Part shown: piece by piece, positions 561 to 44,932 of the stretch
Layout: every line of letters begins with the position of its first letter
How positions within the stretch are numbered: position 1 is the first letter of the stretch
From: Gavia stellata
Lineage: Eukaryota > Chordata > Aves > Gaviiformes > Gaviidae
Reading direction: 5' to 3'
Assembly: GCF_030936135.1 (NCBI RefSeq)
Contig: NC_082636.1
Coordinates: forward strand, 78,770 to 142,769
Length of the DNA: 64,000 nt
Notes under the pieces: model-generated
Databases searched by the model: none
Told to the model about the DNA's origin: nothing
What the model saw: the letters and a program-made list of their open reading frames with translations, nothing else
Position numbers and translations under genes: made by a program

Positions 561-3690
<3,130 letters not shown>

Positions 3691-5090: not shown

Positions 5091-5227
5091 GACGAGAGAA
5101 GCCGGGATGGCCGGAGCCGCCCTGACTCCCCCTCGGGGCACTCCAGGGACCCCCCACCCTCTCCCCCCACCCCAAAATGGGTGCCACCCCCCCCCCCCCC
5201 CCAACCCCCAGGGCCCCATCTTCCTAC

Positions 5228-5330: not shown

Positions 5331-5459
5331 CTGGGGCCGGAGGAGGAAACGGCTTCCTCCGCCTTCTCCTCTAATCCGGCACCTTCCGCCAGGCTCCGGG
5401 AAACCCGTGGCGTGGGGTGGCCCCACGGGGTGGGTGGGTGGGGGAAAGGGGTGGGAGGA

Positions 5460-7740: not shown

Positions 7741-7743
7741 GCC

Positions 7744-8334: not shown

Positions 8335-8534
8335 NNNNNNNNNNNNNNNNNNNNNNNNNNNNNNNNNNNNNNNNNNNNNNNNNNNNNNNNNNNNNNNNNN
8401 NNNNNNNNNNNNNNNNNNNNNNNNNNNNNNNNNNNNNNNNNNNNNNNNNNNNNNNNNNNNNNNNNNNNNNNNNNNNNNNNNNNNNNNNNNNNNNNNNNNN
8501 NNNNNNNNNNNNNNNNNNNNNNNNNNNNNNNNNN
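8335..8534. other. assembly gap of exactly 200 N
   Basis: A run of 200 Ns separates the 142-bp repeat from a different GGATGGA-type repeat. The round length suggests a placeholder of unknown true size. Confidence 0.99.
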
Positions 8535-9570: not shown

Positions 9571-9786
9571 GGCACCCACGGGTGGACAGATGGACGGAGG
9601 GGGAGACCCCAGAGGACCCACCCCACCACCACCAGCCCCACCCGCCGCCCCACTGGCGCCAGCCTGGACCCAGAGCCGTCCAGCCCCAGATCTTATCTCT
9701 GCCCTGGGGCCAGGGTGCCCCCAGGCCCCGCCCCCTCCACAGGGACCAGTGGGGCGGCACTGGGAGGGGGGCGGAGCCAGCACGCC

Positions 9787-9864
9787 ATTGGTTGACGCCA
9801 CCCCATTGGCCCCTACAAAAACCCGGAGCCTTTGGAGGAGTCACAGCCCCGTGGCCCCGGGAAG
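9787..9864 (+). promoter_or_regulatory. promoter and non-coding exon 1 of the FOLN-array/VWD gene
   Basis: Two inverted CCAAT boxes (ATTGG at 9787 and 9805) precede a TATA-like TACAAAAA at 9814-9821. About 30 bases later transcription could begin near 9843, and the short exon ends at the strong donor GGGAAG|GTGAGT at 9864. The next exon starts exactly at the ATG after TGGGGCAG at 10438. TATA plus CCAAT suits a tissue-restricted gene. Inferred from motif order and spacing. Confidence 0.55.
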
Positions 9865-10438
9865 GTGAGTCCTGGACACCTGGGTCCCCTGTCCAGCTGT
9901 GGGGTCTATGGGGCAGGGTCTATGGGGTGGAGTGGGGCAGGGTGCGTTCCGGACGCCTGGGTCCTCTTTCCTTTCTGGGGGTCTATGGGGCAGGGTGGGT
10001 CCCCGGACACCTGGGTCCCCTGCCCTGCTATGGGGTCTATGGGGCAGGGTGGGTCCCTGGACACCTCGGTCCCCTGCTCTGCTATGGGGTCTATGGGGCA
10101 GGGTGGGTCCCTGGACGCCTGGGTCCCCTGTCCTGCTATGGGGTCTATGGGGCAGAGTGGGTCCCCGGACGCCTGGGTCCCCTGTCCTGCTATGGGGTCT
10201 ATGGGGCAGGGTGGGTCCCCAGACGCCTGGGTCCCCTGTCCAGCTGTGGGGTCTATGGGGCAGGGTGGGTCCCGAGCGCCGGGGTCCCCTGTCCAGCTGT
10301 GGGGTCTATGGGGCAGGGTGGGTCCCCGGATGCCTGGGTCCCCTGCCCTGCTATGGGGTCTGTGGGGCAGAGTGGGTCCCGGGCGCCTGGGTCCCCCCAC
10401 CCCCTTTCTCACGGTCCTCTCTCCAACGTGTGGGGCAG
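9865..10438. repeat. 54-bp minisatellite in intron 1
   Basis: About nine copies of a 54-bp unit (GGTCTATGGGGCAGGGTGGG, TCCCCGGACGCCTGGGTCC) fill the intron between the non-coding exon and the signal-peptide exon. The repeat begins within a few bases of the donor. Confidence 0.85.
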
Positions 10439-13400
10439 ATGGGGCCTCCTCGGACGTTCCTCCTCTGGGTTTGGTTCCTGCTCCAGTGCGGTGAGTCCCA
10501 TTTGGCCAAAATCCCCCTTTCTCCACCCAAATTCCACCTTTTCCATATCCGGCCCCAAATTCCGCATATCCGGCCCCAAATCCACCCACCCTTCCGTTCC
10601 ACCTCTCCCTTTGCATCTCCAGCCCCAAATTGGGCGTTTTCAGCCCCAAATCCACGCACCCTTTCACTCCACCTCTCCTTTTTCATCTCCGGCCCCAAAT
10701 TCGGCATTTCCAGCCCCAAATTCGGCATTTCTGGCCCCAAATCCACGTGCCCTTCCATTCCACCTCTCCCTTTGCATCTCCAGCCCCAAATTCGGCATTT
10801 CCGGCCCCAAATCCACACACCTTTCCATTCCACCTCTCCCTTTGCATCTCCAGCCCCAAATTTGGCATTTCCAGCCCCAAATCCATGCGCCCTTCCATTC
10901 CACCTCTCTTTTTCCATCTCCAACCCCATATTTGGCATTTGCAGCCCCAAATCCACACACATTTTCATTGCACCTCTCCATCTCCAACCCCAAATTCGGC
11001 ATTTCCGGCCCCAAAGCCACTCACGCTTTCATTCCACCTCTCCTCTTCCATCTCCGGCCCCAAATTCGGCATATCCGGCCCCAAATTCGGCATTTCCGGC
11101 CCCAAATCCATGCGCCCTTCCATTCCACCTCTCCTTTTCCATCTCCAACCCCATATTTGGCATTTGCAGCCCCAAATCCACACACATTTTCATTGCACCT
11201 CTCCATCTCCAGCCCCAAATTCGGCATTTCCGGCCCCAAATCCATGCGCCCTTCCATTCCACCTCTCCCTTTGCATCTCCAGCCCCAAATTTGGCATTTG
11301 CAGCCCCAAATCCACACACATTTTCATTGCACCTCTCCATCTCCAGCCCCAAATTCGGCATTTCTGGCCCCAAATCCACACGCCCTTCCATTCCACCTCT
11401 CCTCTTCCACCTCCAACCCCAAATTCGGCTTTTCCAGCCCCAGAGCCACTCTCGCTTTCATTCCACCTTTCCCTTTCCATCCCCAACCCCAAATTCGGCA
11501 TTTCCGGCCCCAAAGCCACTCACGCTTTCATTCCACCTCTCCTCTTCCATCTCCGGCCCCAAATTCGGCATATCCGGCCCCAAATTCGGCATTTCCGGCC
11601 CCAGAGCCACTCACGCTTTCATTCCACCTTTCCCTTTCCATCCCCAACCCCAAATTTGGCATTTCCAGCCCCAAATTCCCTTTAGAATGGGCAGCAGTGA
11701 GTGCTCAATCCCTACGCAAGCCCCTGGAGAGTCCCCACCCTTAAATCCCCCCATGACTGTAGACCGAAGGGAGGAAAGAGCGAGTTTGAGTGGGAGGAGA
11801 ACAAAAAACAATGGGGAATTCTGCCTCATTGGACAACAGAAGAAGCTTCACACACACACACACAGAGACGCAGTGGATTCTCTGCTGTCTGATAAGGGGT
11901 TGGGCTGTTGCTCACTGACCTCTGGGTTTTATTCCCCAGGTGCCGATCCACCGGCCCAGAGCGGAGCCAAACTCTGCCTTGGGGTGCGATGCGGACCGGG
12001 GAGCACGTGCAGAATGTCCGACGCCGGGCCCAAATGCGTCCCCTTGCCCTCATGCAAAAACTACCAGTGCAAGGAGGGGACGCAGTGCAAGATGGTGGAC
12101 GGGTGGCCAAAATGTGTCCCACTGCCTTCGTGCAAGAACGTCCGCTGTGGAGAAGGAACGGAGTGCAAAATGGTGGATGGGTGGCCCAAGTGCGTCCCGT
12201 TGCCTTCATGCAAGAACACCCGTTGTGAAGCCGGAACCCAGTGCAAGATGGTGGACGGGTGGCCCAAGTGTGTCCCACTGCCTTCGTGCAAGAACATCCG
12301 TTGTGAAGCCGGAACCCAGTGCAAGATGGTGGACGGGTGGCCAAAATGTGTCCCACTGCCTTCATGCAGGAACGTCCGTTGTGGAGCTGGAACCCAGTGC
12401 AAGATGGTGGACGGGTGGCCCAAATGTGTCCCGTTGCCTTCGTGCAAGAACATCCGTTGTGAAGCCGGAACGCAGTGCAAGATGGTGGACGGGTGGCCCA
12501 AGTGTGTCCCGTTACCATCGTGCAAGAACATCCGCTGTGGAGAAGGAACCCAGTGCAAGATGGTGGACGGGTGGCCAAAATGTGTCCCACTGCCTTCGTG
12601 CAAGAACGTCCGTTGTGGAGCCGGAACCCAGTGCAAGATGGTGGACGGGTGGCCCAAATGTGTCCCGTTGCCTTCATGCAAAAACGTCCGTTGTGGAGAA
12701 GGAACCCAGTGCAAGATGGTGGACGGGTGGCCAAAATGTGTCCCACTGCCATCGTGCAAGAACATCCGTTGTGGAGAAGGAACCCAGTGCAAGATGGTGG
12801 ACGGGTGGCCAAAATGTGTGCCACTGCCTTCGTGCAAGAACGTCCGTTGTGGAGCCGGAACCCAGTGCAAGATGGTGGACGGGTGGCCCAAATGTGTGCC
12901 ACTGCCATCGTGCAAGAACGTCCGTTGTGGAGCCGGAACCCAGTGCAAGATGGTGGACGGGTGGCCCAAGTGTGTCCCGTTACCATCGTGCAAGAACGTC
13001 CGTTGTGGAGCCGGAACCCAGTGCAAGATGGTGGACGGGTGGCCCAAGTGTGTCCCGTTGCCTTCATGCAAGAACGTCCGTTGTGGAGAAGGAACCCAGT
13101 GCAAGATGGTGGACGGGTGGCCCAAGTGCGTCCCATTACCATCATGCAAGAACGTCCGTTGTGGAGCCAGAACCCAGTGCAAGATGGTGGATGGGTGGCC
13201 CAAGTGCGTCCCATTACCATCGTGCAAGAACATCCGTTGTGAAGCTGGAACCCAGTGCAAGATGGTGGACGGGTGGCCCAAGTGTGTCCCACTGCCTTCG
13301 TGCAAGAACGTCCGCTGTGGAGAAGGAACGGAGTGCAAAATGGTGGATGGGTGGCCCAAGTGCGTCCCGTTGCCTTCATGCAAGAACACCCGTTGTGAAG

Positions 13401-16400
13401 CCGGAACCCAGTGCAAGATGGTGGACGGGTGGCCCAAGTGTGTCCCACTGCCTTCGTGCAAGAACGTCCGCTGTGGAGCCGGAACACAGTGCAAGATGGT
13501 GGACGGGTGGCCAAAATGTGTCCCGTTGCCTTCGTGCAAGAACGTCCGTTGTGAAGCCGGAACCCAGTGCAAGATGGTGGACGGGTGGCCCAAGTGCGTC
13601 CCCATCCCCTCGTGTCACCGATTCCGTTGCGGCGAGGGCATGCGGTGCAAGATGGTGGCTGGTTGGCCCAAATGCGTCCACCTCCCGCCCTCCTGCCGGC
13701 CCATTCGCTGCCCGAAGGGGACCCGTTGCAAGATGGTGGACGGTTGGCCCAAATGCGTGCGCAAGCAGCTCTTCCAGAGGGAAGCGCCACCGCCTCCGGC
13801 TCTTCACGTGTCACCCTCGTGCCACCATCATCCCTGTCCCGAAGAGTCCACGTGTAAGGTGGTAGATGGTTGGCCCCGGTGTGTCCCAACCAAGACGTCC
13901 CCAAGGCGACCTTCTTGCGGTGACATCCACTGTCCCAAAGAGACCACGTGCAAGATGACGGACGGGTGGCCCCACTGCGTCCAAACCGGTCCCTCCTGTC
14001 ACAACATCCAGTGCCAGAAGGGAACCGCGTGTCGGATGGTTGACGGTTGGCCACGGTGCGTCCCAACCAAGACGTCCTCAAGACAACCTTGCCGGGACGT
14101 CCCATGTCCCAAAGGGACCACGTGCGAGATGGTGGACGACCAACCACGCTGCGTCCCCAAACCCCCCTCCTGCGACGACGTCCAATGCCAGAAGGGAACC
14201 GTGTGTCACATGGTTGACGGGTGGCCTTGGTGTGGGCCAACAAAGACCTCCCACTTGCAACTGGTCCACAAAATCCCGACGTGTGAAGACATCCGTTGCC
14301 AAAAGGGGACGGTGTGTAAAATGCTGGACGGGTGGCCCAAATGCGTGGGTCCCCTGCCCTCCTGCAGTGACATCCAGTGTCCCCAAGGTACCACGTGCAA
14401 GATGATCAGCGGTTGGCCCAAATGCATCCACAACCCGCCCTCCTGCGGCAACTTTCCGTGTCCGAAGGGGACCGTGTGCCTCATGGCGCACGGTTGGCCC
14501 CGCTGTGTGCAGAGAGGGCCGTCCCGCCACCAACCAGCTTCTCCCGCTCGGGCGGGAACCGGGAAATATTCCGATTCCCATCCCAGCCCGAAACATCTGC
14601 CCAGCGCGCAACCGTCCTGCACCAACGTACGGTGTCAGCAAGGGACCACGTGCAAGATGACGGATGGACAACCACGGTGTGTCCACAACCCGCCCTCCTG
14701 CAGTGACATCCAGTGCCAGAAGGGAACCACGTGTCAGATGGTCGAAGGTTGGCCACGGTGTGTCCAAACCAAGATGTCCATCAGGAAACCTTCTTGTGAT
14801 GATGTCCACTGTCCCCAAGGGACGACGTGCAACTTGATCAACGGCCAACCACGGTGTGTCCACAACCCGCCCTCCTGCCAGGACATCCAGTGCCAGAAGG
14901 GAACCATGTGTCAGATGGTCGATGGTTGGCCACGGTGTGTCCAAGCCAAGATCTCCCACACACCACCCATCCCAAAAAGACCAACCTGTGAGGACATCCA
15001 CTGCGCAAAAGGAACCGTGTGCACCACAGTCGATGGTGGACCCAAGTGCGTGGCCCAACAGCCTTCCTGCAGTGACGTCCAGTGTCCAAAAGGGACCACG
15101 TGCACGATGACGGATGGTCAACCACGGTGCGTCCACAACTCGCCCTCCTGCAGTGACATCCAGTGCCAGAAGGGAACCACGTGTCAGATGGTCGATGGTT
15201 GGCCACGGTGTGTCCAAACCAAGATGTCCATCAGGAAACCTTCTTGCAATGAGGTCCGCTGTCCCCAACGGACCACGTGCAACTTGATCGACGGCCAACC
15301 ACGATGTGTCCACAACCCGCCCTCCTGCAGTGACGTCCAGTGCCAGAAGGGAACCACGTGCCAGATGGTGGATGGTTGGCCACGGTGTGTCCAAGCCAAG
15401 ATCTCCCACACACCACCCATCCCAAAAAGACCAACCTGTGAGGACATCCACTGCGCAAAAGGAACCGTGTGCACCACAGTCGATGGTGGACCCAAGTGCG
15501 TGGCCCAACAGCCTTCCTGCAGTGACGTCCAGTGTCCAAAAGGGACCACGTGCAGGATGACGGATGGACAACCACGGTGTGTCCACAACCCGCCCTCCTG
15601 CAGTGACATCCAGTGCCAGAAGGGAACCACGTGTCAGATGGTCGATGGTTGGCCACGGTGTGTCCAAACCAAGATGTCCATCAGGAAACCTTCTTGTGAT
15701 GATGTCCACTGTCCCCAAGGGACGACGTGCAACTTGATCAACAGCCAACCACGGTGTGTCCACAACCCGCCCTCCTGCCAGGACATCCAGTGCCAAAAGG
15801 GAACCACGTGTCAGATGGTCGATGGTTGGCCACGGTGCATCCAAACCAAGATGTCCATCAGAAAACCTTCTTGCAACGAGGTCCACTGTCCCCAAGGGAC
15901 AACGTGCAACTTGATCAACGGCCAACCACGGTGTGTCCACAACCCGCCCTCCTGCAGGATGACGGATGGACAACCACGGTGTGTCCTCAACCCGCCCTCC
16001 TGCAGTGACATCCAGTGCCAGAAGGGAACCACGTGTCAGATGGTCGATGGTTGGCCACGGTGTGTCCAAACCAAGACATCCTCAAGACCACCGTCTTGTC
16101 ATGACATCCAGTGTCCCCAAGGGACCACGTGCAAGATGACAGACGATTGGCCCCACTGTGTCCACAACGCACCCTCCTGCAGTGACATCCAGTGCCAGAA
16201 GGGAACCACGTGTCAGATGGTGGATGGTTGGCCACGGTGTGTCCAAGCCAAGATCTCCCACACACCACCCATCCCAAAAAGACCAACCTGTGAGGACATC
16301 CACTGCGCAAAAGGAACCGTGTGCACCACAGTCGATGGTGGACCCAAGTGCGTGGCCCAACAGCCTTCCTGCAGTGACGTCCAGTGTCCAAAAGGGACCA

Positions 16401-19400
16401 CATGCACGATGATGGATGGACAACCACGGTGTGTCCACAACCCGCCCTCCTGCAGTGACATCCAGTGCCAGAAGGGAACCACGTGTCAGATGGTCGATGG
16501 TTGGCCACGGTGTGTCCAAACCAAGATGTCCATCAGGAAACCTTCTTGTGATGATGTCCACTGTCCCCAAGGGACGACGTGCAACTTGATCGACGGCCAA
16601 CCACGGTGTGTCCACAACCCGCCCTCCTGCCAGGACATCCAGTGCCAGAAGGGAACCACGTGCCAGATGGTTGATGGTTGGCCACGGTGTGTCCAAACCA
16701 AGACATCCTCAAGACCACCGTCCTGTCATGACATCCAGTGTCCCCAAGGGACCACGTGCAAGATGACGGATGATTGGCCCCACTGTGTCCACAACGCACC
16801 ATCCTGCAGTGACATCCAGTGCCAGAAGGGAACCACGTGTCAGATGGTGGATGGTTGGCCACGGTGTGTCCAAGCCAAGATCTCCCACATGCCACCCACC
16901 CCGAAAAGACCAACCTGTGAGGACATCCACTGCGCAAAAGGAACCGTGTGCACCACAGTCGATGGTGGACCCAAGTGCGTGGCCCAACAGCCTTCCTGCA
17001 GTGACGTCCAGTGTCCAAAAGGGACCACGTGCACGATGACGGATGGTCAACCACAGTGTGTCCACAATCTACCCTCCTGCCAGGACATCCAGTGCCAGAA
17101 GGGAACCACGTGCCAGATGGTCGATGGTTGGCCACGGTGTGTCCAAACCAAGATGTCCATCAGGAAACCTTCTTGCAACGAGGTCCGCTGTCCCCAAGGG
17201 ACCACGTGCAACTTGATCGACGGCCAACCACGGTGTGTCCACAACCCGCCCTCCTGCAGTGACGTCCAGTGCCAGAAGGGAACCACGTGTCAGATGGTCG
17301 AAGGTTGGCCACGGTGTGTCCAAACCAAGATGTCCATCAGGAAACCTTCTTGTGATGATGTCCACTGTCCCCAAGGGACCACGTGCAACTTGATCGACGG
17401 CCAACCACGGTGTGTCCACAACCCGCCCTCCTGCCAGGACATCCAGTGCCAGAAGGGAACCACGTGTCAGATGGTCGAAGGTTGGCCACGGTGTGTCCAA
17501 ACCAAGATGTCCATCAGGAAACCTTCTTGCAACGAGGTCCGCTGTCCCCAAGGGACCACGTGCAACTTGAGCGACGGCCAACCACGGTGTGTCCACAACC
17601 CGCCCTCCTGCCAGGACATCCAGTGCCAGAAGGGAACCACGTGTCAGATGGTCGAAGGTTGGCCACGGTGTGTCCAAACCAAGATGTCCATCAGGAAACC
17701 TTCTTGTGATGATGTCCACTGTCCCCAAGGGACCACATGCAACTTGATCGACGGCCAACCACGGTGTGTCCACAACCCGCCCTCCTGCAGTGACATCCAG
17801 TGCCAGAAGGGAACCACGTGTCAGATGGTCAATGGTTGGCCACAGTGTGTCCAAACCAAGACATCCTCAAGACCACCGTCTTGTCACGACATCCAGTGTC
17901 CCCAAGGGACCACGTGCAGGATGACAGATAATTGGCCCCACTGTGTCCACAGCGCACCCTCCTGCAGTGACATCCAGTGCCAGAAGGGAACCACGTGCCA
18001 GATGGTCGATGGTTGGCCACGGTGTGTCCAAGCCAAGACCACCCTGAGGCAACCATCTTGCAGCGATGTCTACTGTCCCCAAGGGACCATGTGCAACATG
18101 GTCAATGGGTGGCCCCAGTGTGTCCAAAATCGTCCCTCCTGCAGTGACATCCAATGCCAGAAGGGAATCACGTGCCAGATGGTCGATGGTTGGCCACGGT
18201 GTGTCCAAACCAAGCTGTCCCCAAGGAGACCTTCTTGCAGGAACATCCAGTGTCCCAAAGGGACCACGTGCAAGATGACAGACGGTTGGCCCCGATGTGT
18301 CCAAAATCCACCCTCCTGCAGTGACATCCAATGCCAGAAGGGAACCACGTGCCAGATGGTCGATGGTTGGCCACAGTGCACCCAAACCAAGACCGTACTG
18401 AGGCAACCTTCTTGCAGGGACGTCCAATGTCCCAAAAGGACCACGTGTAAGATGCTGAAGGGGTGGCCTCAATGTGTCCACCACCAGCCCTCCTGCAGTG
18501 TCGTCCACTGTCCCGAAGGGACCACGTGTAAGATGACAGGTGGTTGGCCCCGATGTGTTCATATTCAACCTTCCTGCGAAGATGTCCAGTGCCAGAAGGG
18601 AACCACGTGCCAGATGGTCGATGGTTGGCCACGGTGTGTCCAAACAAAGACATCCCTCAGGAGACCTTCTTGTAGCAACATCCACTGTCCCAAAGGGACC
18701 ATGTGCAAGGTGACCAATGGGTGGCCTCAGTGTGTCCACAACCCGCCCTCCTGCCATGAGGTCCAGTGCCAGAAGGGAACCACGTGTCAGATGGTTGATG
18801 GTTGGCCACGGTGTGTCCAAGCCAAGACCACCTTGAGGCAACCATCTTGCAGCGATGTCCGCTGTCCCCAAGGGACGACGTGTAGTTTGATCGATGGCCA
18901 ACCACAGTGTGTCCCCAACCCGCCCTCCTGCAGCGACATCCAGTGTGAGAAAGGAACCACGTGTCAGATGGTCGATGGTTGGCCACGGTGCATCCAAACT
19001 AAGACCTTGCCAAGGCGACCTTCCTGCAGTGACGTCCACTGTCCCAAAGCAACCACATGCAAAATGCTGCAGGGTTGGCCACAGTGTGTCCACAACCAAC
19101 CCTCCTGTAACGACGTCCAATGCCAGAAGGGAACCACGTGTCAGATGGTTGATGGTTGGCCACGGTGTGTCCAAATCAAGACTTCCATTCGGAGACCTTC
19201 TTGCCGGGACGTCCAATGTCCCCAAGGGACCACGTGCAAGATGACAGACGGTTGGCCCCGATGTGTCCACAATCGTCCCTCCTGCAGTGACACCCAGTGC
19301 CAGAAGGGAACCACGTGCCAGATGGTTGATGGTTGGCCACGGTGTGTCCAAATCAAGACCTCCATTAGGAGACCTACTTGCAGTGATGTCCACTGTCCCA

Positions 19401-34400: not shown

Positions 34401-37400
34401 GGCGTCTGGGTGGGACCAGCCCCATAGAGCACCCAGGGACCCAGGCGTCCGGGTGGGACCAGCCCCATAGAGCACCCAGGGACCCAGGCGTCTGGGTGGG
34501 ACCAGCCCCACGGAGCACCCAGGGACCCAGGCGTCCGGGTGGGACCAGCCCCATAGAGCACCCAGGGACCCAGGCGTCCGGGTGGGACCAGCCCCATAGA
34601 GCACCCAGGCACTCAGGCGTCTGGGTGGGACCAGCCCCATAGAGCACCCAGGGACCCAGGCGTCCGGGTGGGACCAGCCCCATAGAGCACCCAGGGACCC
34701 AGGCGTCAGGGTGGGACCAGCCCCATAGAGCACCCAAGGACCCAGGCGTCCGGGTGGGACCAGCCCCACAGAGCACCCAGGCGTCAGGGTGGGACCAGCC
34801 CCATAGAGCACCCAGGGACCCAGGCGTCCGGGTGGGACCAGCCCCACACAGCACCCAGGGACCCAGGCGTCCGGGTGGGACCAGCCCCATAGAGCACCCA
34901 GGGACCCAGGCGTCCCGGTGGGACCAGCCCCACGGAGCACCCAGGGACCCAGGCGTCTGGGTGGGACCAGCCCCATGGAGCACCCAAGGACCCAGGCGTC
35001 CGGGTGGGACCAGCCCCACAGAGCACCCAGGGACCCAGGCGTCTGGGTGGGACCAGCCCCATAGAGCACCCAGGCACCCAGGCGTCAGGGTGGGACCAGC
35101 CCCATAGAGCACCCAGGCACCCAGGCGTCCGGGTGGGACCAGCCCCACACAGCACCCAGGGACCCAGGTGTCCGGGTGGGACCAGCCCCATAGAGCACCC
35201 AGGGACCCAGGCGTCCGGGTGGGACCAGCCCCATAGAGCACCCAGGGACCCAGGCGTCCGGGTGGGACCAGCCCCATAGAGCACCCAGGGACCCAGGCGT
35301 CCGGGTGGGACCAGCCCCACAGAGCACCCAGGGACCCAGGTGTCCGGGTGGGACCAGCCCCACACAGCACCCAGGGACCCAGGCGTCCGGGTGGGACCAG
35401 CCCCATAGAGCACCCAGGGACCCAGGCGTCCGGGTGGGACCAGCCCCACAGAGCACCCAGGGACCCAGGCGTCCGGGTGGGACCAGCCCCATAGAGCACC
35501 CAGGCACCCAGGCGTCTGGGTGGGACCAGCCCCATAGAGCACCCAAGGACCCAGGCGTCCGGGTGGGGCCAGCCCCATAGAGCACCCAGGAAGGACCTGG
35601 GCACCCTGAAGAGCACCCAGGCACCCTGGAGGGCACCCAGGCAGGACCCCACCCCCAATATCTTTCTCCCCCCCCCCCCAGCACCCAACTGCCCAGCGGG
35701 CACCCGCTACGCCACCTGCACCCCTAGCTGCACCCAAGGGTGCCGGGAGGGCTGCGTCTCCCCCCCCGGTGCCGGGGGCACCCAGGGGTGCTCGGCGGCG
35801 TGGGAGAGGGCGTGGGGTGCCGGCGGCACCCCGGGGACCTGCCGGGCGGTGGGGACCCGGCACTACAGGACCTTCGACGGAGCGGCGGTGGCGGCGGGTG
35901 GGGACAACTGCTCCTACGTGGTGACGCGGAGCTGCGGCGGCGGTGGCGTCCAACCCGCCTTCGCCGTCACCGTCACCGAGGCACCCCGGGGTGGCCCCGA
36001 GAGGCGGAAGGTGACCGTCAGCGTGGAGCAGCGGAGTTGGGTGCTGCGGGGAGGGCGCCCCGGTGTGGTGGAGGTGAGGGGGTTGGGGGGAGGAAGGGGG
36101 CGATGGGTGGAGAAGGATGGGATGGAGAAGGATGGGATGGGGTGGAGAAGGATGGGGTGGAGAAGGATGGGATGGGGTGGAGAAGGATGGGATGGGGTGG
36201 AGAAGGATGGGGTGGAGAAGGATGGGGTGGAGAAGGATGGGGTGGAGAAGGATGGGATGGGGTGGAGAAGGATGGGGTGGAGAAGGATGGGGTGGAGAGG
36301 ATGGGATGGAGAAGGATGGGATGGGGTGGAGAAGGATGGGATGGAGAAGGATGGGATGGGGTGGAGAAGGATGGGGTGGAGAAGGATGGGGTGGAGAGGA
36401 TGGGATGGAGAAGGATGGGATGGAGAAGGATGGGATGGGGTGGAGAAGGATGGGGTGGAGAAGGATGGGATGGAGAAGGATGGGATGGGGTGGAGAAGGA
36501 TGGGGTGGAGAAGGATGGGATGGGGTGGAGAAGGATGGGGTGGAGAAGGATGGGGTGGAGAGGATGGGATGGAGAAGGATGGGATGGGGTGGAGAAGGAT
36601 GGGATGGAGAAGGATGGGATGGGGTGGAGAAGGATGGGGTGGAGAAGGATGGGGTGGAGAGGATGGGATGGAGAAGGATGGGATGGAGAAGGATGGGATG
36701 GGGTGGAGAAGGATGGGGTGGAGAAGGATGGGATGGAGAAGGATGGGATGGGGTGGAGAAGGATGGGGTGGAGAAGGATGGGATGGGGTGGAGAAGGATG
36801 GGGTGGAGAAGGATGGGGTGGAGAGGATGGGATGGAGAAGGATGGGATGGAGAAGGATGGGATGGGGTGGAGAAGGATGGGATGGGGTGGAGAAGGATGG
36901 GGTGGAGAGGATGGGATGGAGAAGGATGGGATGGAGAAGGATGGGATGGGGTGGAGAAGGATGGGATGGGATGGAGAAGGATGGGGTGGGGTGGAGAAGG
37001 ATGGGGTGGAGAAGGATGGGGTGGAGAAGGATGGGATGGAGAAGGAAGGGGTGGAGAGGATGGGATGGAGAAGGATGGGATGGGGTGGAGAAGGATGGGG
37101 TGGAGAAGGATGGGATGGAGAAGGATGGGATGGAGAAGGATGGGATGGAGAAGGATGGGATGGAGAAGGATGGGATGGGTGGAGAAGGATGGGATGGAGA
37201 AGGATGGGATGGAGAAGGATGGGATGGGTGGAGAAGGAAGGGATGGGGTGGAGAAGGAAGGGATGGGGTGGAGAAGGAAGGGATGGGATGGGATGGAGAA
37301 GGATGGGGTGGGGTGGAGAAGGATGGGGTGGAGAAGGAAGGGATGGGGTGAAGGATGGGGTGGGGTGAAGGATGGGGTGGGGTGGAGAAGGATGGGGTGG

Positions 37401-40400
37401 GGTGGAGAAGGATGGGATGGAGAAGGATGGGATGGAGAAGGATGGGGTGGGATGGAGAAGGATGGGATGGAGAAGGATGGGGTGGAGAAGGATGGGGTGG
37501 AGAAGGATGGGGTGGAGAAGGATGGGGTGGAGAAGGATGGGGTGGGATGGAGAAGGATGGGATGGGGTGGAGAAGGATGGGATGGGGTGGAGAAGGATGG
37601 GATGGGGTGGAGAAGGATGGGGTGGAGAAGGATGGGGTGGGGTGGAGAAGGATGGGGTGGAGAAGGATGGGATGGAGAAGGATGGGGTGGAGAAGGATGG
37701 GGTGGAGAAGGATGGGGTGGAGAAGGATGGGGTGGAGAAGGATGGGGTGGAGAAGGATGGGGTGGGATGGAGAAGGATGGGATGGGGTGGAGAAGGATGG
37801 GGTGGAGAAGGATGGGGTGGGGTGGAGAAGGATGGGGTGGAGAAGGATGGGATGGAGAAGGATGGGATGGAGAAGGATGGGATGGGTGGAGAAGGATGGG
37901 ATGGGTGGAGAAGGATGGGGTGGAGAAGGATGGGGTGGAGAAGGATGGGATGGGGCGGAGAAGGAAGGGATGGGGCGGAGAAGGAAGGGATGGGGCGGAG
38001 AAGGATGGGGTGGAGAAGGATGGGATGGGATGGAGAAGGATGGGGTGGAGAAGGATGGGATGGGATGGAGAAGGATGGGGTGGAGAAGGATGGGATGGGG
38101 TGGAGAAGGATGGGATGGGGTGGAGAAGGATGGGATGGGATGGAGAAGGATGGGATGGAGAAGGATGGGATGGGGTGGAGAAGGATGGGATGGGATGGAG
38201 AAGGATGGGATGGGGTGGAGAAGGATGGGATGGGGTGGAGAAGGATGGGATGGGGTGGAGAAGGATGGGATGGGGTGGAGAAGGATGGGATGGGGTGGAG
38301 AAGGATGGGGTGGAGAAGGATGGGGTGGGATGGAGAAGGATGGGATGGGGTGGAGAAGGATGGGGTGGAGAAGGATGGGGTGGGGTGGAGAAGGATGGGG
38401 TGGAGAAGGATGGGATGGAGAAGGATGGGATGGGTGGAGAAGGATGGGATGGGTGGAGAAGGATGGGATGGGTGGAGAAGGATGGGATGGGGCGGAGAAG
38501 GAAGGGATGGGGCGGAGAAGGAAGGGATGGGGCGGAGAAGGAAGGGATGGAGAAGGATGGGATGGGGTGGAGAAGGATGGGATGGGATGGAGAAGGATGG
38601 GATGGAGAAGGATGGGATGGGGTGGAGAAGGATGGGATGGGATGGAGAAGGATGGGATGGGATGGAGAAGGATGGGATGGGGTGGAGAAGGATGGGATGG
38701 GGTGGAGAAGGATGGGATGGGGTGGAGAAGGATGGGATGGGGTGGAGAAGGATGGGGTGGAGAAGGATGGGGTGGAGAAGGATGGGGTGGGGTGGAGAAG
38801 GATGGGGTGGAGAAGGATGGGATGGAGAAGGATGGGATGGAGAAGGATGGGGTGGGGTGGAGAAGGATGGGATGGGGTGGAGAGGGATGGGATGGGGTGG
38901 AGAGGGATGGGAGGGAGAAGGATGGGATGGGGTGGAGAGGGATGGGAGGGAGAAGGATGGGATGGGGTGGAGAGGGATGGGATGGGGTGGAGAGGGATGG
39001 GATGGAGAAGGATGGGATGGGGTGGAGAGGGATGGGATGGAGAAGGATGGGATGGGGTGGAGAAGGATGGGATGGAGAAGGATGGGGTGGGGTGGAGAAG
39101 GATGGGATGGGGTGGAGAGGGATGGGAGGGAGAAGGATGGGATGGGGTGGAGAAGGATGGGATGGAGAAGGATGGGATGGGGTGGAGAGGGATGGGATGG
39201 GGTGGAGAGGGATGGGATGGAGAAGGATGGGATGGGGTGGAGAAGGATGGGGTGGGGTGGAGAAGGATGGGGTGGGGTGGAGAAGGATGGGGTGGGGTGG
39301 AGAAGGATGGGGTGGAGAAGGATGGGATGGGGTGGAGAAGGATGGGGTGGAGAAGGATGGGGTGGAGAAGGATGGGGTGGAGAAGGATGGGGTGGAGAAG
39401 GATGGGGTGGAGAAGGATGGGGTGGGGTGGAGAAGGATGGGGTGGGTGGAGAAGGATGGGATGGGATGGAGAAGGATGGGATGGGGTGGAGAAGGATGGG
39501 ATGGGGTGGAGAAGGATGGGATGGGATGGAGAAGGAAGGGGTGGGATGGAGAAGGAAGGGGTGGAGAGGATGGGATGGAGAAGGATGGGATGGGGTGGAG
39601 AAGGATGGGGTGGAGAAGGATGGGGTGGAGAAGGATGGGATGGAGAAGGATGGGATGGAGAAGGATGGGATGGAGAAGGATGGGATGGAGAAGAATGGGA
39701 TGGGATGGAGAAGGATGGGATGGAGAAGGATGGGATGGAGAAGGATGGGATGGAGAAGGATGGGATGGAGAAGGATGGGATGGGTGGAGAAGGAAGGGAT
39801 GGGGTGGAGAAGGAAGGGATGGGGTGGAGAAGGAAGGGATGGGGTGGGGTGGAGAAGGATGGGGTGGAGAAGGAAGGGATGGGGTGAAGGATGGGGTGGG
39901 GTGAAGGATGGGGTGGGGTGAAGGATGGTGTGGGGTGGAGAAGGATGGGGTGGAGAAGGAAGGGATGGGGTGGAGAAGGAAGGGGGGATGGAGAAGGAAG
40001 GGGGGATGGATGGATGGAGGGGACGGAGAAGGACGGATGAGATGGAGAAAGATGGATGGAGAAGGACGGATGAGATGGAGAAGGACGGATGAGATGGATG
40101 GAGAAGGACGAGATGGGGAAGGACGGATGAGATGGAGGATGGATGGAGAAGGAGGGATGGAGAAGGATGGACAGACGAGATGGGGAAGGACGGACAGAGG
40201 ACAGATAGAGAAGATGGATGGAGAAGGACGGAGGGGATGGAGAAGGACGAGATGGAGAAGGACGGAGAAGGATGGGATGGAGGAGGACGAATGAGATGGA
40301 GGAGGACGAATGAGATGGAGGATGGACGGAGAAGGACGGATGAGATGGGGAAGGACGGATGAGATGGGGAAGGATGGATGGAGAAGGATGGGGGAGATGG

Positions 40401-43400
40401 AGAAGATGGATGGGTGGGTAGATGGGGAAGGACGGATGAGATGGGGAAGGACGGATGAGATGGGGAAGGACGGATGGAGAAGGATGGGGGAGATGGAGAA
40501 GATGGATGGGTGGATAGATGGAGAAGGATGGAGGGGATGGAGAAGGACGGATGAGATGGAGAACGATGAGATGGAGAAAGATGGATGAGATGGAGAAAGA
40601 TGGATGGAGAAGGACGGGATGGAGAAGGACGGATGAGATGGATGGAGAAGGACAAGATGGGGAAGGACGGATGGAGAAGGATGGACGAGATGGAGGATGG
40701 ATGGAGAAGGATGGACAAGATGGAGGATGGATGGATGAGATGGACAAGGACAGATGAGACGGAGGACATACGAGACGGGGAAGGATGGATGGAGAAGGAT
40801 GGATGGAGGATGGATGGAGAAGAATGGATGAGACGGAGAAGGATGGATGGAGAAGGACGGATGAGACGGAGAAGGATGGATGGAGAAGGACGGATGAGAC
40901 GGAGAAGGATGGATGGAGAAGACGACTGGCTGGATGAATGGGAAGGATGGATGGATGAAGGATGTAGGATGGAGATGGATGGAGATGGATGGAGATGGAT
41001 GGACAGACAGAAGGATGGAAGGATGGACAGATGGCTGGAGAAGGTCGGAAGGATGGAGGGATGGAGAAGGTTGGACGGATGAATGGATGGATGGAGAAGG
41101 TTGGAAGGACAGATGGCTGGAGAAGGTCGGAAGGATGGAGAAGGTTGGATGGCTGGATGGACGGACGGATGGCTGGAGGACAAACGGACTGCTGGCCAGA
41201 AGGAACCGGGTGGAGGACCAGGCGGAGCAGCCAACCAGGTCCCCCCGCTCACCCCACCCCACCCCACGCAGGTGGACGGCGCCGAGGTGCCGCTGCCCTT
41301 CTGCCCGCGGGGCGGGGCCGCCTGCGTGACACCCCAAGGTGCCACCACCCTCCTCCTCCTCCTCGACTCGGGCCTCCGCGTGGCCGTCGGCCCCGGGGCC
41401 GCGGTGGCCGTCACCGTCTCCCCCCGTTACCGCAACGTCACCTGCGGCCTCTGCGGCAACTTCGACGGCCACCCCTATAACGACCACCTCCACAAGGCCA
41501 CCGCCGGCACCACGTGTCATCGGCCCTGCCCCGGACCCGCGTGTCCCCCTTGTCACCAGCCCCCCAAGAGGGCCTTCGTCCACACCAAGCTCTGTGGTCT
41601 CCTCCGAGCCCCCCGAGGTCCCTTTGGGGACTGTCACACCGTGGTCCATCCCGGAATCTTCTTCGACATCTGCCTCTGGGAGCTCTGCGAGGCCCCCGGG
41701 GACAAAGAGGTCCTCAAGGAGGTCCTGGGTGCCTACGAGGCCGCCTGCCACCAGGCCGGGGCTCGGGTGGGACCCTGGAGCACCCCCAACGTCTGCCGTG
41801 AGTTGGGGACCAGGGGGTGGGAGGTGGATGTGGGGCCGTGGGGCCTCTGGAGGGGCTGTGTCCATCCCTGATGTTCTCCAGCTCTCTGTCCATGACATCC
41901 CTACATGTCCATGGTGACCTCTGTGTCCATCCCTGATGTTCTCCACCTGTCCATCCGTGACGTCCCTACGTGTCCATGGTGACCTGTGTCCATCCCTGAC
42001 GTTCTCCAGCTCTCTGTCCCTCCATGACATCCCTACGTGTCCATGGTGACCTCTCTGTGTCCATCCCTGATGTTCTCCAGCTCTCTGTCCATCCATGACA
42101 TCCCTACATGTCCATGGTGACCTCTCTGCGTCCATCCCTGATGTTCTCCAGCTCTCTGTCCATCCATGACATCCCTACATGTCCATGGTGACCTCTCTGC
42201 GTCCATCCCTGATGTTCTCCAGCTCTCTGTCCATCCCTGACGTCCCTACGTGTCCATGGGGACCTCTCTGTGTCCATCCCTGATGTTCTCCAGCTCTCTG
42301 TCCATCCCTGACATCCCTACGTGTCCATGGTGACCTCTCTGTGTCCATCCCTGATGTTCTCCAGCTCTCTGTCCATCCCTGACGTCTCTACATGTCCATG
42401 GTGACCTCTCTGTGTCCATCCCTGATGTTCTCCAGCTCTCTGTCCATCCCTGACGTCCCTACGTGTCCATGGGGACCTCTCTGTGTCCATCCCTGATGTT
42501 CTCCAGCTCTCTGTCCATCCATGACATCCCTACGTGTCCACGATGACCTCTCTGTGTCCATCCCTGATGTCCTCCAGCTCTCTGTCCCTCCATGACATCC
42601 CTACGTGTCCATGGTGACCTCTCTGTCCATCCCTGATGTTCTCCAGCTCTCTGTCCATCCATGACATCCCTACGTGTCCACGATGACCTCTCTGTGTCCA
42701 TCCCTGATGTCCTCCAGCTCTCTGTCCATCCCTGACGTCCCTACGTGTCCATGGTGACCTGTGTCCATCCCTGATGTTCTCCAGCTCTCTGTCCATCCCT
42801 GACATCCCTACATGTCCATGGTGACCTGTGTCCATCCCTGATGTTCTCCAGCTCTCTGTCCATCCCTGACATCCCTACGTGTCCATGGTGACCTCTCTGT
42901 GTCCATCCCTGATGTTCTCCAGCTCTCTCTCCATCCCTGACTTCTCTACCCGTCCCCTCCATGATGTCCCCCGTGGTCTGTCCCTCCCCGACCTGTCACG
43001 TGTCCCCACGTCCCCACCCAATCCCTCTATCACCTACAGCCCCGTGGTGCCCCGAGGACTCTCGCTGCCGCCCCGGTGACAACTGTGTCCCCCACCGAAC
43101 GCTGCTGCCACGGGACCTGCTTGGAGGTGAGGGGACACCATGGGGACGAGGGATGGGGGGACCTCCAGGTGAGGGGACACGGGATGGGGGGACCTCCAGG
43201 TGAAGGAACGCAACGGGGATGGGGAGACGGGGACGGGGAGACGGGGACGGAGGAAGCGTGACTAGAGGAGGAATGGAAGGTAGAGGGGATGGGTGGACGG
43301 CCGAGGAGATGAAGAAGCCACTGGAGAAGGACAGCTGGGTGGTTGGGTGGATGGAACCCCAGAAGAAGGATGAACGGACGGATGGACAACTGAAGGAGCT

Positions 43401-44829
43401 TCTTCAACGGCTTCTCCATCCATCCGTTCCTGGAAATATGGCTGGAAAAGCACTGAGGATGATGGATGGATGAAGAAACTATTGAAGACGGATAGCTGAA
43501 GAAACCATCGAAGATGGACGGATAGATGGAGAGATGATGGATGGAGAAACCATGTAGATGGACAGATGGATGGAGAAACCAAGGTGGAGGGATGGATGGA
43601 AAAACGAATGGAGAAACCATGAAGATGGACAGATGAATGAAGAAATGGATGGAGAAACCACTGAAGATGGATGGATGGAGAAACCATCAAAGATGGATGG
43701 ATGGAGAAACCATGAAGATGGACAGATGGAAGATGGATGGAGAAACCATGAAGATGGACGGAAAGATGGATGGAGAAACCATGAAGATGGACGGAAAGAT
43801 GGATGGAGAAACCATGAAGACGGACGGATGGAAAGATGGATGGAGAAACCATAAAGATGGACGGAAAGATGGATGGAGAAACCATCGAAGATGGACAGAT
43901 GGAAGATGGATGGAGAAACCATGAAGATGGACGGAAAGATGGATGGAGAAACCATCAAAGATGGATGGATGGAGAAACCATCGAAGATGGATAGACAGAA
44001 AGATGGATGGAGAAACCATGAAGATGGACGGAAAGATGGATGGAGAAACCATGAAGATGGACGGATGGAAAGATGGATGGAGAAACCATCAAAGATGGAT
44101 GGATGGAGAAACCATCGAAGATGGATAGACGGAAAGATGGATGGAGAAACCATGAAGATGGACGGATGGATGGAGAGATGGGAGAAGCCATGAAGATGGA
44201 TGGAGAAGCCATGACGATGGATGGATGGATGGAAAAATGGATAGAGAAACCACTGAAGATAGATGGAGAAACCATCAAAGATGGATGGATGGATGGAGAG
44301 ATGGATGGAAAAACCCTGGAGATGGATGGACGGACAAACCATTGAAGATGGATGGATGGAGAGATGGATGGAGAAACTATAAAGATGGATGGATGGAGAG
44401 ATGGATGGAAAAACCACTGAAGATGGAGTGATGGAAAAACCAAAGATGGACGGATGGATGGAGGAATAGATGGAGAAACCATCAAAGATGGATGGACGGA
44501 GAGACGGATGGAGAAATCACGAAGATGGATGGATGGATGGAAACAGAAATGAAGATACGGATAAAGAAACGGGATAACGGATGGAGAGAAGGGATGGGGA
44601 GATGGATGGAGGGATGGGGAGATGGATGGAGGGATGGGGAGATGGATGGAGGGATGGAGGGACGGAGAAGACACCCTGACCCCATCTCCCCCCCCCAGGC
44701 CAGCTGCTGGGAGCGCTGCCGCTGCGAGGCCTCGGCCAGACCCTGGTGGCCCCGGGGGACGCCGTGGGCCAGATCCTGGGGTGGCCCCTGGGCCTCCGAC
44801 CCCTCCAGGGTGTCCCCTTGGTCCCATAG
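10439..44829 (+). CDS. giant secreted FOLN-array / von Willebrand D protein (FCGBP-like), about 4,845 aa
   Basis: Nine coding exons join without a frame break: 10439-10490, 11940-24226, 24349-24574, 27396-27718, 28561-29074, 35682-36073, 41272-41797, 43040-43126 and 44699-44829. Exon 1 encodes a signal peptide ([17 protein letters not shown]). About 136 four-cysteine modules follow (residues ~30-4030), all from the second coding exon. Then come VWD1 (~4035-4188), VWD2 with C8 (~4190-4467), a TIL-like linker, VWD3 with C8 (~4467-4773) and a short tail. The VWD part resembles FCGBP, zonadhesin and tectorin; the array modules match the follistatin-N-like (FOLN) pattern. It is probably a large disulfide-rich secreted or gel-type protein. 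The human FBL-FCGBP adjacency supports the FCGBP-like label, but human FCGBP is built from repeated VWD-C8-TIL units, so strict orthology is unproven. The start was chosen because the ATG follows a good acceptor and opens a signal peptide in the right phase. Confidence 0.9.
10491..11939. repeat. intron 2: about 70-bp minisatellite, then unique sequence with a CA run
   Basis: From about 10500 to 11690, tandem 70-bp units carry CCATTCCACCTCTCC and CCCCAAATTCGGCATTTCC. The last 250 bases are unique, with a short CA dinucleotide run near 11852 and a pyrimidine tract leading to the acceptor TTATTCCCCAG at 11939. The open frame through this intron is incidental. Confidence 0.85.
11940..24226 (+). 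CDS. 12.3-kb single exon encoding about 136 FOLN-like modules plus start of VWD1
   Basis: This one exon supplies about 85% of the protein. The repeating module is C-x4-C-x5-C-x8-C, for example [12 protein letters not shown] followed by KMVDGWPKC. It almost always has G-T before the third cysteine and G-[WQ]-P before the fourth. That spacing matches the FOLN half-domain of follistatin, SPARC and agrin. By hand I count about 136 modules (about 540 cysteines). The exon enters in phase 1 after ATTCCCCAG and leaves in phase 0 at GCGAGG|GTGAGG (24226). The last ~190 bases encode the N-terminal half of the first VWD domain (RAFDGKNYG). No stop or frameshift interrupts 12,287 bases, which argues for selection on the protein. 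Confidence 0.9.
11975..13760 (+). repeat. array block A: about 23 monomer modules of 26 aa (78 bp)
   Basis: Near-identical 78-bp units encode [14 protein letters not shown] and [12 protein letters not shown]. Variation is confined to a few positions (NV/NI/NT; GA/GE/EA). The last two modules diverge and lead into a proline-rich linker ([10 protein letters not shown]) near 13780. This is a coding minisatellite. Confidence 0.92.
13815..22880 (+). repeat. array block B: about 100 modules as 59-aa (177-bp) dimers with basic linkers
   Basis: Two module types alternate. One is [14 protein letters not shown] with [11 protein letters not shown] plus a basic linker such as TKTSIRRP; the other is [14 protein letters not shown] with [11 protein letters not shown] plus a short linker. 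Together they give a 177-bp higher-order unit. Larger copies occur too: an unusual [13 protein letters not shown] linker recurs near 14955, 15410, 16255 and 16885, and a stretch of about 354 bp near 20700 recurs at 21055. A spacer ([12 protein letters not shown]) breaks the array near 14550. Confidence 0.9.
22995..23975 (+). repeat. array block C: about 12 diverged 26-aa modules
   Basis: Modules such as [24 protein letters not shown] and [12 protein letters not shown] keep the four-cysteine spacing but differ clearly from each other in DNA, unlike blocks A and B. The last three replace GWP with a serine-proline motif (ESSPSC, ENSPRC). They connect directly to VWD1 and are preceded by a non-module spacer (about 22885-22990) that reads through in frame. 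Confidence 0.85.
24349..24574 (+). CDS. exon encoding C-terminal half of VWD1
   Basis: Enters in phase 0 after CTCCCCGCAG and leaves in phase 1 at CGGTGCC|GTGAGT. It begins with [12 protein letters not shown], the typical second half of a VWD domain, and includes [15 protein letters not shown]. The CxxC is kept, but the usual N-x-D calcium-loop residues after it are lost. No C8 domain follows, so this VWD is degenerate. Confidence 0.85.
24575..27395. repeat. intron 4: purine-rich higher-order repeat, about 325 bp
   Basis: Sense-strand polypurine made of GGATGGAGGGATGGAGAA and GTGGGTGAAGAGG. A 325-bp higher-order unit is visible at 24732, 25057 and 25382, with variants to about 26600. A simpler GGAGAAACGGGAAGAGGGAT repeat follows to about 27200. 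The tandem BamHI-like GGATCC elements near 27280-27310 are unique. Confidence 0.85.
27396..27718 (+). CDS. exon encoding linker and N-terminal half of VWD2
   Basis: Enters in phase 1 after CCCCACAG and leaves in phase 0 at GTCACG|GTGAGT. It starts [13 protein letters not shown], followed by a short VPVPNP repeat, then [19 protein letters not shown], the start of VWD2. The usual GDPHY is reduced to MGHLR, while H and TFD remain. The proline repeat is encoded by GTCCCCGTCCCCAACCCC-like DNA, a small coding microsatellite. Confidence 0.85.
27719..28560. repeat. intron 5: degenerate GTGAGTAG/GAGTAA repeat
   Basis: From the donor onward the intron consists of GTGAGTAGCGAGTGAGTAA-like segments, so GTGAGT (a strong donor consensus) recurs many times on the sense strand, mainly 27719-28450. 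The real acceptor is CTTCGCCCCCCAG at 28560. No gene is inside. Confidence 0.8.
28561..29074 (+). CDS. exon encoding VWD2 second half and C8
   Basis: Phase 0 in, phase 1 out at TTCTGCC|GTAAGT. It begins [15 protein letters not shown], and the VWD core reads [19 protein letters not shown], with the calcium-loop Asp/Asn residues present. The region from [17 protein letters not shown] to SEGFC has the spaced cysteines of a C8 domain. A glycine-rich insert (about 28800-28890) separates the two. Confidence 0.88.
29075..35681. repeat. intron 6: about 150 copies of a 43-bp minisatellite
   Basis: A 6.5-kb array of a 43-bp unit, GGACCCAGGCGTCCGGGTGG + GACCAGCCCCATAGAGCACC + CAG. Variants differ at GGGACC/GGCACC/AGGACC, TCC/TCT/TCA and ATAGAG/ACAGAG/ACACAG. 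A longer variant (GGAAGGACCTGGGCACCCTG) recurs near 29230, 31380, 32760, 33860, 34190 and 35590. The repeat starts about 15 bases after the donor and ends just before the polypyrimidine tract. Confidence 0.95.
35682..36073 (+). CDS. exon encoding TIL-like linker and N-terminal half of VWD3
   Basis: Phase 1 in after the C-run and CAG, phase 0 out at GTGGAG|GTGAGG. It opens with [20 protein letters not shown], the cysteine pattern of a trypsin-inhibitor-like (TIL) domain. VWD3 then starts as [18 protein letters not shown] potential N-glycosylation site lies in DNCSY. Confidence 0.88.
36074..41271. repeat. intron 7: 5-kb polypurine GGATGGGGTGGAGAA array
   Basis: About 36,110-40,020 is an almost unbroken purine/T repeat of GGATGGGATGGAGAA and GGATGGGGTGGAGAA on the sense strand. 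It is followed to about 41,200 by diverged GGACGGATGAGATGGAGAA units. Very long open frames on both strands (up to about 2,070 codons) are artefacts of the stop-free repeat. Confidence 0.95.
41272..41797 (+). CDS. exon encoding VWD3 second half and intact C8
   Basis: Phase 0 in after CCCCACGCAG, phase 1 out at GTCTGCC|GTGAGT. It starts [11 protein letters not shown]. The VWD core [19 protein letters not shown] is the best preserved in the protein, with CGLC, N-F-D and N-D residues and a potential N-glycosylation site (NVT). The C8 domain runs from [16 protein letters not shown] through [14 protein letters not shown] to TPNVC, with all expected cysteines. Confidence 0.93.
41798..43039. repeat. 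intron 8: 71-bp minisatellite
   Basis: About 15 copies of a 71-bp unit (GTGTCCATCCCTGATGTTC, TCCAGCTCTCTGTCCATCC, TGACATCCCTACGTGTCCA, TGGTGACCTCTCT) between about 41,880 and 42,960. Some copies lose the CTCTCT segment. Confidence 0.92.
43040..43126 (+). CDS. small exon encoding degenerate cysteine-rich linker
   Basis: Phase 1 in after CACCTACAG, phase 1 out at TTGGAG|GTGAGG. The frame continued from the C8 exon gives [18 protein letters not shown], a shortened TIL-like remnant. The 87 bases are also open in a second frame rich in cysteine (CCHGTCLE), but that frame is not in phase with the upstream exon. Confidence 0.75.
43127..44698. repeat. intron 9: GGATGGATGGAGAAACCATGAAGAT repeats
   Basis: Short unit of roughly 35 bp with GGATGGAGAAACCATGAAG and ATGGACGGAAAGAT, from about 43,500 to 44,560. 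The first 350 bases (43,130-43,480) are less repetitive. Confidence 0.85.
44699..44829 (+). CDS. last coding exon of the FOLN/VWD gene
   Basis: Phase 1 in after a C-run and CAG. It encodes a cysteine-free tail, from [20 protein letters not shown] to PLQGVPLVP, ending at TAG (44827-44829). The tail has no VWD-type domain and no GPI or transmembrane signal, so the product should be secreted. Confidence 0.8.
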
Positions 44830-44926: not shown

Positions 44927-44932
44927 AATAAA
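44927..44932 (+). terminator. poly(A) signal of the FOLN/VWD gene
   Basis: AATAAA lies 98 bases after the stop codon. Cleavage near 44,950 gives a short 3' UTR. It converges with the COX6B1 poly(A) signal about 140 bases away. Confidence 0.85.

Follow-up and report, generated by a model that had tools for sequence, protein, structure and literature searches.

A probable complete CREMP gene with a tail of VWD domains in the genome of Gavia stellata

Results

Organization of the locus

The stretch of DNA analysed (the window, 64,000 bp) corresponds to bases 78770–142769 of contig C43 (142,769 bp), in a genome of 1.32 Gb. A globin exon of this genome is closest to bird chains: ten of its 12 best PDB matches are avian, the other two (3wr1, 9h0m) less surely so, and a human and a tortoise chain come 13th and 14th. 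It hosts a large gene of nine exons, called CREMP below, followed by a convergent COX6B gene and by fibrillarin (FBL) exons. A trypsin-family serine protease gene resides at about 900–2440 on the minus strand; its closest PDB matches are trypsins, and kallikreins 7, 8 and 5 score lower. The features are as follows.

10439–10490, plus strand: exon 1 with the start codon, encoding a putative signal peptide (hydrophobic core read from the sequence; phase-1 GT donor fitting the exon 2 acceptor)
11940–24226, plus strand: exon 2, a single open exon (12,287 nt) that runs through the full module array into the first half of VWD1 (ORF; Pfam VWD match in the same ORF)
11975–13612, plus strand: array block I, 21 modules almost identical to one another, joined by 5-residue (x5) linkers (pN/pS 0.17–0.19; TILa and FOLN matches)
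13613–23005, plus strand: array blocks II–III, mixed a, b and x16 modules, then a long alternation of a (x6) and b (x11) modules (PDB 9pgb, E 3.8e-58 to 20165–22900)
23006–23968, plus strand: array block IV, 12 diverged modules adjoining the VWD tail, eight consecutive ones with x6 linkers (PDB 9pgb, E 5.6e-33 to 23048–23983)
23996–24226, plus strand: first half of VWD1, inside the array exon (Pfam PF00094, positions 1–73)
24349–24574, plus strand: exon 3, second half of VWD1, no C8 after it (PF00094, positions 81–141; splice sites)
27396–27718, plus strand: exon 4, a spacer rich in Pro and Val, then the beginning of VWD2 (Pfam VWD 1–32, below cut-off at 19.2 versus 22.9 bits; splice sites)
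28561–29074, plus strand: exon 5, second half of VWD2 and C8 (Pfam; best single FCGBP domain 90.9 bits)
35682–36073, plus strand: exon 6, short segment TIL-like by eye, without Pfam TIL match, and first half of VWD3 (Pfam VWD 1–66)
41272–41797, plus strand: exon 7, second half of VWD3 and C8 (Pfam; best single FCGBP domain 83.6 bits)
43040–43126, plus strand: exon 8 (putative), short cysteine-containing segment, TIL-like by eye (splice sites and phase only)
44699–44829, plus strand: exon 9 (putative), C-terminus and stop codon (splice acceptor, phase and stop only)
44927–44932, plus strand: poly(A) signal AATAAA, roughly 100 bp past the stop (read from the sequence)
47366–47473, minus strand: COX6B exon of the convergent neighbour gene (Pfam PF02297, 3.1e-6)
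56840–63464, plus strand: three FBL exons (sequence matches), with a weaker match at 55331–55432; the contig ends at 64000

The gene model is gap-free, the sole run of N in the window (8335–8534) falling outside the gene. All 8 introns are of the GT-AG type and phase-matched, as checked by script. The coding sequence of 14,538 nt ends at a single stop at 44829 and encodes 4,845 residues, 597 of which are cysteines. An earlier note, made from the sequence alone, had read here a signal peptide, about 136 modules and three VWD regions in one frame of about 4,845 residues, with about 540 cysteines in the array. The nine-exon model bears out this plan, the length being exact and the array cysteines amounting to 548. 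Exons 1, 8 and 9 and the signal peptide, all set from splice consensus and frame, are putative.

On the plus strand, a frame of 4,854 codons is open from 9869 to 24433. Exon 2 has no in-frame stops, versus 22 to 120 in the five other frames, and its longest six-frame ORF measures 4,095 codons, versus a mean of 220 and a maximum of 368 in 50 mononucleotide shuffles of the exon. This open exon leads from the array straight into VWD1, so that no splicing is needed at their junction. Introns inside the array were considered and set aside: the long spacers noticed by eye at 13757, 14507 and 22877 stay in the open frame, and a short in-frame intron is possible. The length of the array could be off by a few units, since repeat arrays can be misassembled. 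Two introns of the downstream region are filled by repeats, the one between exons 5 and 6 by about 154 copies of a 43-bp tandem repeat (29093–35590), the one between exons 6 and 7 by a purine-rich array of 15, 20 and 35 bp periods (GATGGGATGGAGAAG; 36102–40989), with GC skew near 1.

The module array

The array spans residues 30–4027 and consists of 13.7% cysteine and 6.5% lysine. Strict C-x4-C-x5-C-x8-C modules number 135 (mean 0.14 and maximum 2 in 200 residue shuffles), and one module with a first loop 2 residues longer brings the total to 136; two module fragments are also present. The longer module is found at residues 2643–2665 of the protein, and the fragments, likewise encoded in exon 2, at residues 1356–1365 (last cysteine pair only) and 3695–3700 (first cysteine pair only). 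The 134 linkers between strict modules measure 6 residues in 61 cases, 11 in 39, 5 in 23 and 16 in 5, and are irregular in 6. A tandem period of 177 bp corresponds to the 59-residue a-b repeat.

Block I is clearly under purifying selection, block IV only weakly so. The pN/pS ratio of block I is 0.19 in 19 pairs of neighbours and 0.17 in all 190 pairs. Modules two apart give 0.38 (102 pairs), and block IV gives 0.57 (66 pairs), its synonymous sites being near saturation. Once cysteine codons are removed, the ratios for block I, the middle and block IV are 0.24, 0.50 and 0.75. Concerted evolution may influence all these values. Chance or a pseudogene as the source of the array was rejected on the shuffles, the open frame and the pN/pS of block I.

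The earlier note had called the modules FOLN-like. FOLN (PF09289) is indeed matched, and so is the C-terminal half of TILa, to which the modules align at positions 33–54 of 55. In the scan of 11942–13900 (block I) TILa is far ahead (1.1e-40 versus 1.4e-5), which sets aside FOLN as the sole description of the modules; at 20165–22900 FOLN is slightly ahead (3.5e-39 versus 4e-35). In two AlphaFold models the single modules fold, each with a beta hairpin (mean pLDDT 75 and 87), while the overall shape is unreliable (pTM 0.29 and 0.40). The top Foldseek match of both models is PDB entry 9pgb, with TM-scores of only 0.16–0.21, so that the overall shapes disagree.

Identity of the gene

In a PDB sequence search the array matched 9pgb, a "4-module Cysteine Rich Eggshell Membrane Protein", with 87 of 119 residues identical (73%). 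Kodali et al. 2011 (PMC3068167) describe two types of chicken CREMP modules, type a, C-X4-C-X5-C-X8-C-X6, and type b, which ends in X11, arranged as all-a, a-b and a-b-b patterns on different fragments. The 61 x6 and 39 x11 modules found here follow this end rule. One exon carries all-a and a-b runs, plus further mixed patterns; judged by linker length, the a-b-b pattern is absent from the array. The signatures of the two types are near-exclusive, not absolute: P26 is found in all 61 a modules and in none of the 39 b modules, P7 in 49 of 61 and 2 of 39, K25 in 38 of 39 b and 6 of 61 a modules. Among the sites that Kodali et al. call invariant, P19 is conserved in all 100 x6 and x11 modules, G9 in 92, G17 in 90, D3 in 85, and K8 in 61, lysine being present at the latter in only 25 of the 61 a modules.

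The same authors state that the number and length of CREMPs were not known, and that the fragments may belong to one protein of thousands of residues. When the 1.32 Gb genome was searched, all 26 matches to a block IV query (36 candidates scored) and all 12 matches to a block I query (23 candidates scored) fell in this array; no second CREMP array was found elsewhere with the two queries. Within the reach of the search, the single-protein option thus holds in this genome.

Chicken CREMP resembles the array in the spacing of its modules, their division into types a and b and the P26 and K25 signatures, and is 73% identical to it over four modules. Chicken CREMP is known in the cited papers as fragments only, while here the chain is whole, with a putative signal peptide, a four-block order and a VWD tail. 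In chicken, LOC107049904 is named CREMP in PMC13074765. Taken as a whole, the data are best explained if this is the avian CREMP gene in full length, which codes for the cysteine-rich protein of eggshell-membrane fibres; confidence in this identification is high. The array, proposed in the earlier note as a novel polymer, is hence known and already named (PMC3068167; PDB 9pgb); egg, one of the sites of secretion guessed there, fits the CREMP identity.

Other proteins share the cysteine spacing. The spore coat protein SP75 of Dictyostelium features a C-X4-C-X5-C-X6-10-C motif (PMC3068167), in repeats more variable than CREMP modules. The FOLN half-domain of follistatin, SPARC and agrin has the cysteine spacing of the modules, which are matched by the same Pfam family, and Foldseek aligned the FS1 fold of follistatin over 40 columns (rmsd 3.3, E 0.22). 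FOLN half-domains are single in these proteins and lie beside Kazal domains. CREMP half-modules, in contrast, are in tandem, ahead of a VWD domain.

The VWD tail

The tail includes three VWD and two C8 domains. VWD1 is encoded by the end of exon 2 and exon 3, VWD2 by exons 4–5, VWD3 by exons 6–7. C8 domains follow VWD2 and VWD3; none was found by Pfam after VWD1 and before exon 5 in the three forward frames. Pfam gave no TIL match in the tail, and CTCK was not found in the frames that exons 7–9 use (two of three forward frames scanned). MAM domains, featured by zonadhesin, were found neither in 2300–11939 (plus strand), 11942–13900 and 20165–24259 nor in the tail, 13901–20164 being left out. 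Upstream, the plus-strand Pfam scan of 2300–11939 in three frames yielded no IgGFc_binding domain, and nothing beyond a borderline APC repeat match.

The GDPH motif is absent from all three VWDs of CREMP, which carry GRWR, GMGH and GTRH at the corresponding sites. It is present in 15 of 22 other VWD starts, taken from three loci of the same genome. In the D10 domain of FCGBP, changes of either the Asp or the His of GDPH are reported to abolish cleavage (PMC10880436). As the motif is missing and such mutants are uncleaved, the CREMP chain would remain uncut. R-x-[RK]-R sites were looked for as well, and none was seen that lacks a Pro directly after it. CGxC motifs are kept in all three VWDs.

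Whole-chain E-values of FCGBP (6e-128, 2.1e-110) sum several repeats and inflate its margin, and single-domain scores were used to compare FCGBP with mucins. Among the FCGBP and mucin domains of the PDB, the best single one for VWD2-C8 is from FCGBP (90.9 bits, versus 33.6 for mucin-2), as it is for VWD3-C8 (83.6 bits, versus 50.6 for mucin-5AC). Within the FCGBP chain 8rde, the best places of VWD2 and VWD3 are neighbouring D domains in the same order (1751–1913, then 2092–2295).

Origin of the gene

Like the CREMP tail, FCGBP features VWD and C8 domains in D1-D2-D3 order, a TILa half-module before VWD, the same exon plan and a location near FBL. The two differ as CREMP has no IgGFc_binding domain, lacks GDPH in its three VWDs and C8 after VWD1, and has 136 half-modules instead of one. 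As for the VWD-C8-TIL-E assemblies of FCGBP, three VWDs and two C8s, with no Pfam TIL match, were seen in the CREMP tail. The comparison suggests that CREMP is a reworked FCGBP-type gene, which may have originated by amplification of a TILa half-module ahead of VWD1.

Half-modules precede VWDs elsewhere in the genome. Among the 22 VWD starts mentioned above (first-half VWD matches in the stretches taken, minus four further copies on contig C11; VWD loci on C4, C6, C10, C17, C18 and C21 were left out), 16 follow a strict half-module, one a loose one, and five none. The two IgGFc_binding matches found in the genome both lie on contig C578, none at the CREMP locus. All three D1-type exons of the FCGBP-like genes on C578 start at an apparent phase-1 acceptor, followed by one half-module (not strict in one of the three, the middle loop being shortened) and then by VWD. 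CREMP exon 2 shares this plan, its phase included, but holds 136 modules where these exons hold one.

A tree was made with 19 D domains, the three of CREMP and 16 of the 22 others; six with a short or missing second half were dropped, and no mucin or VWF rows were included. CREMP D2 groups with three FCGBP D2s (90/99), CREMP D1 with one FCGBP D1 (97/83); CREMP D3 is not placed in any clade, and the branches of the CREMP tail are very long (3.3–4.1). In topology tests, p-AU was 0.39 for CREMP D1 with all three D1s, and 0.03 for swapped placements. A tree holding the three tail domains of CREMP together is not rejected (p-AU 0.12). Support from the tree for an origin from FCGBP is moderate only, since the clades were named with the tree already in view, the branches of CREMP are very long and mucin and VWF rows are missing.

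Gene order also bears on the origin. The CREMP gene is followed by COX6B, in convergent orientation, and then by FBL on the CREMP strand. Human FCGBP and FBL are presumably on the same strand. The human order is DYRK1B, FBL, FCGBP, PSMC4 in a table of PMC4243240 and, likewise, in a list of PMC3728203; in the cattle list of PMC5070821 PSMC4 is ahead of FCGBP (DYRK1B, FBL, PSMC4, FCGBP). The FBL exons downstream thus favour an FCGBP origin, and the intervening COX6B and the cattle order weigh against it. The PSMC4 marker PF16450 has matches in this genome on C7 and C150 only, which did not place the other human neighbour of FCGBP.

It is conceivable that the tail derives from another VWD gene, zonadhesin-like or tectorin-like, and that its likeness to FCGBP reflects poor sampling. 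The long branches and the unplaced D3 agree with such an origin; the PDB matches weighed were limited to FCGBP, mucins and VWF, and reptiles have zonadhesin-like genes (PMC9275260). The single-domain scores topped by FCGBP, the FCGBP order followed by D1 and D2 with swapped placements at p-AU 0.03, and the nearby FBL speak against it, as does the statement in the same paper that birds have neither Zan nor ZanL. On balance, this origin is considered unlikely. The FCGBP origin is favoured with slightly better than even confidence, in the following form: an FCGBP-type gene near FBL would have lost IgGFc_binding and GDPH, amplified the half-module of D1 to about 136 copies, and kept D1-D2-D3 as an assembly end; the "FCGBP-like" transcript that is reported to be over-expressed in the white isthmus of the chicken may represent the tail part of the CREMP mRNA.

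Secretion and assembly

Background for a working model is provided by papers reporting CREMP in eggshell membranes, CREMP expression in the white isthmus, QSOX as oxidant and lysine-derived cross-links. The chain would enter the secretory pathway of isthmus gland cells of the oviduct by its N-terminal putative signal peptide, whose presence argues for classical secretion. Du et al. 2015 (PMC4608100) regarded it as doubtful that the 5′ sequence of CREMP was known, and predicted that their own fragment exits by an unconventional route. The 136 or so modules, each with four cysteines and therefore probably two internal disulfides, may form a stiff, elongated rod. Three FCGBP-type VWD domains would remain attached to it as the C-terminal tail, without self-cleavage at GDPH, and could act as an assembly or packing end aligning the chains. 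Lysine-derived cross-links and further disulfides would then fix the rods into fibres. A scan for oestrogen response elements found 1 site, versus 5.9 expected, and therefore lends no support to oviduct regulation.

The tail had been viewed in the earlier note as of the multimerisation type. Covalent multimerisation as in VWF could be hinted at by the CGxC motifs persisting in all three VWDs, by the insoluble, disulfide-rich nature of the fibres (PMC3068167), and by the PDB title of 8r0t, which names an FCGBP dimer. Gel-forming mucins and VWF, however, have complete D assemblies and a C-terminal CTCK; CREMP has a VWD1 without C8 and no CTCK match in the two frames scanned over exons 7–9. FCGBP itself, which outscores mucins domain by domain, is reported not to form disulfide polymers (PMC10880436). 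A VWF-like polymer was rejected on the missing C8 and CTCK and on the single-domain scores, and a tail driving such multimerisation is regarded as improbable.

It may also be argued that the tail belongs to a separate, neighbouring FCGBP-like gene, wrongly fused to the array by the model. In the chicken white isthmus, CREMP and "IgGFc-binding protein-like" were counted as two different genes, and an eggshell-membrane protein table gives each its own entry (PMC6811977). The first half of VWD1 lies, however, within the open exon of the array, with neither stop nor splice in between, and all downstream junctions of the model are in phase; two genes are thus very improbable. The earlier note is upheld in reading array and VWD as parts of a single frame and a single gene, the product being a structural protein that is secreted and rich in disulfides. 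The FCGBP-like signal in eggshell-membrane and isthmus data may in turn be the CREMP tail. The 2019 table lists CREMP, CREMP1 to CREMP6 and a protein "similar to IgGFc-binding protein-like of wild turkey" (PMC6811977), entries which may be mergeable.

That the locus is a pseudogene or an assembly artefact, as the small contig (142,769 bp), rich in GC and in repeats, and the introns packed with tandem repeats could suggest, has next to no likelihood against 4,845 codons without internal stop, intact splice phases, pN/pS far below 1 in block I, and modules following the grammar of chicken CREMP.

What the gene adds

A CREMP-VWD protein was not found described in the open-access literature searched, in line with the claim of the earlier note that a FOLN-type array joined to VWD domains is undescribed; subscription papers, preprints and database gene models may show one. 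The terms "CREMP" and "von Willebrand" occurred together in that literature only in the context of peroxidasin. Apparently new are the putative signal peptide, the complete order of the modules, and the tail of three FCGBP-type VWD domains. Full-length CREMP was considered a major step for understanding eggshell-membrane fibres by Kodali et al. 2011 (PMC3068167), and a 2015 paper describes the CREMP gene as not yet cloned and its N-terminus as uncertain. A gap-free gene makes the number of CREMPs, the secretion route and the end directing assembly testable, and peptides of the tail are targets in existing data sets. The analysis offers an origin of an egg material from a mucus protein: if true, the main fibre protein of avian eggshell membranes would be a rebuilt mucus protein.

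Other VWD genes in the genome

Two FCGBP-like genes with IgGFc_binding domains reside on contig C578 in divergent orientation (38938–39804, minus strand; 65835–66704, plus strand). Six D domains come next on the minus strand, apparently in two D1-D2-D3 rounds. On contig C11, at 16.376–16.445 Mb (L004–L008, L019–L023), VWD exons with identical scores are mostly about 8.4 kb apart, suggesting a recent tandem duplication of D-domain units in this VWD gene, which has no IgGFc_binding match.
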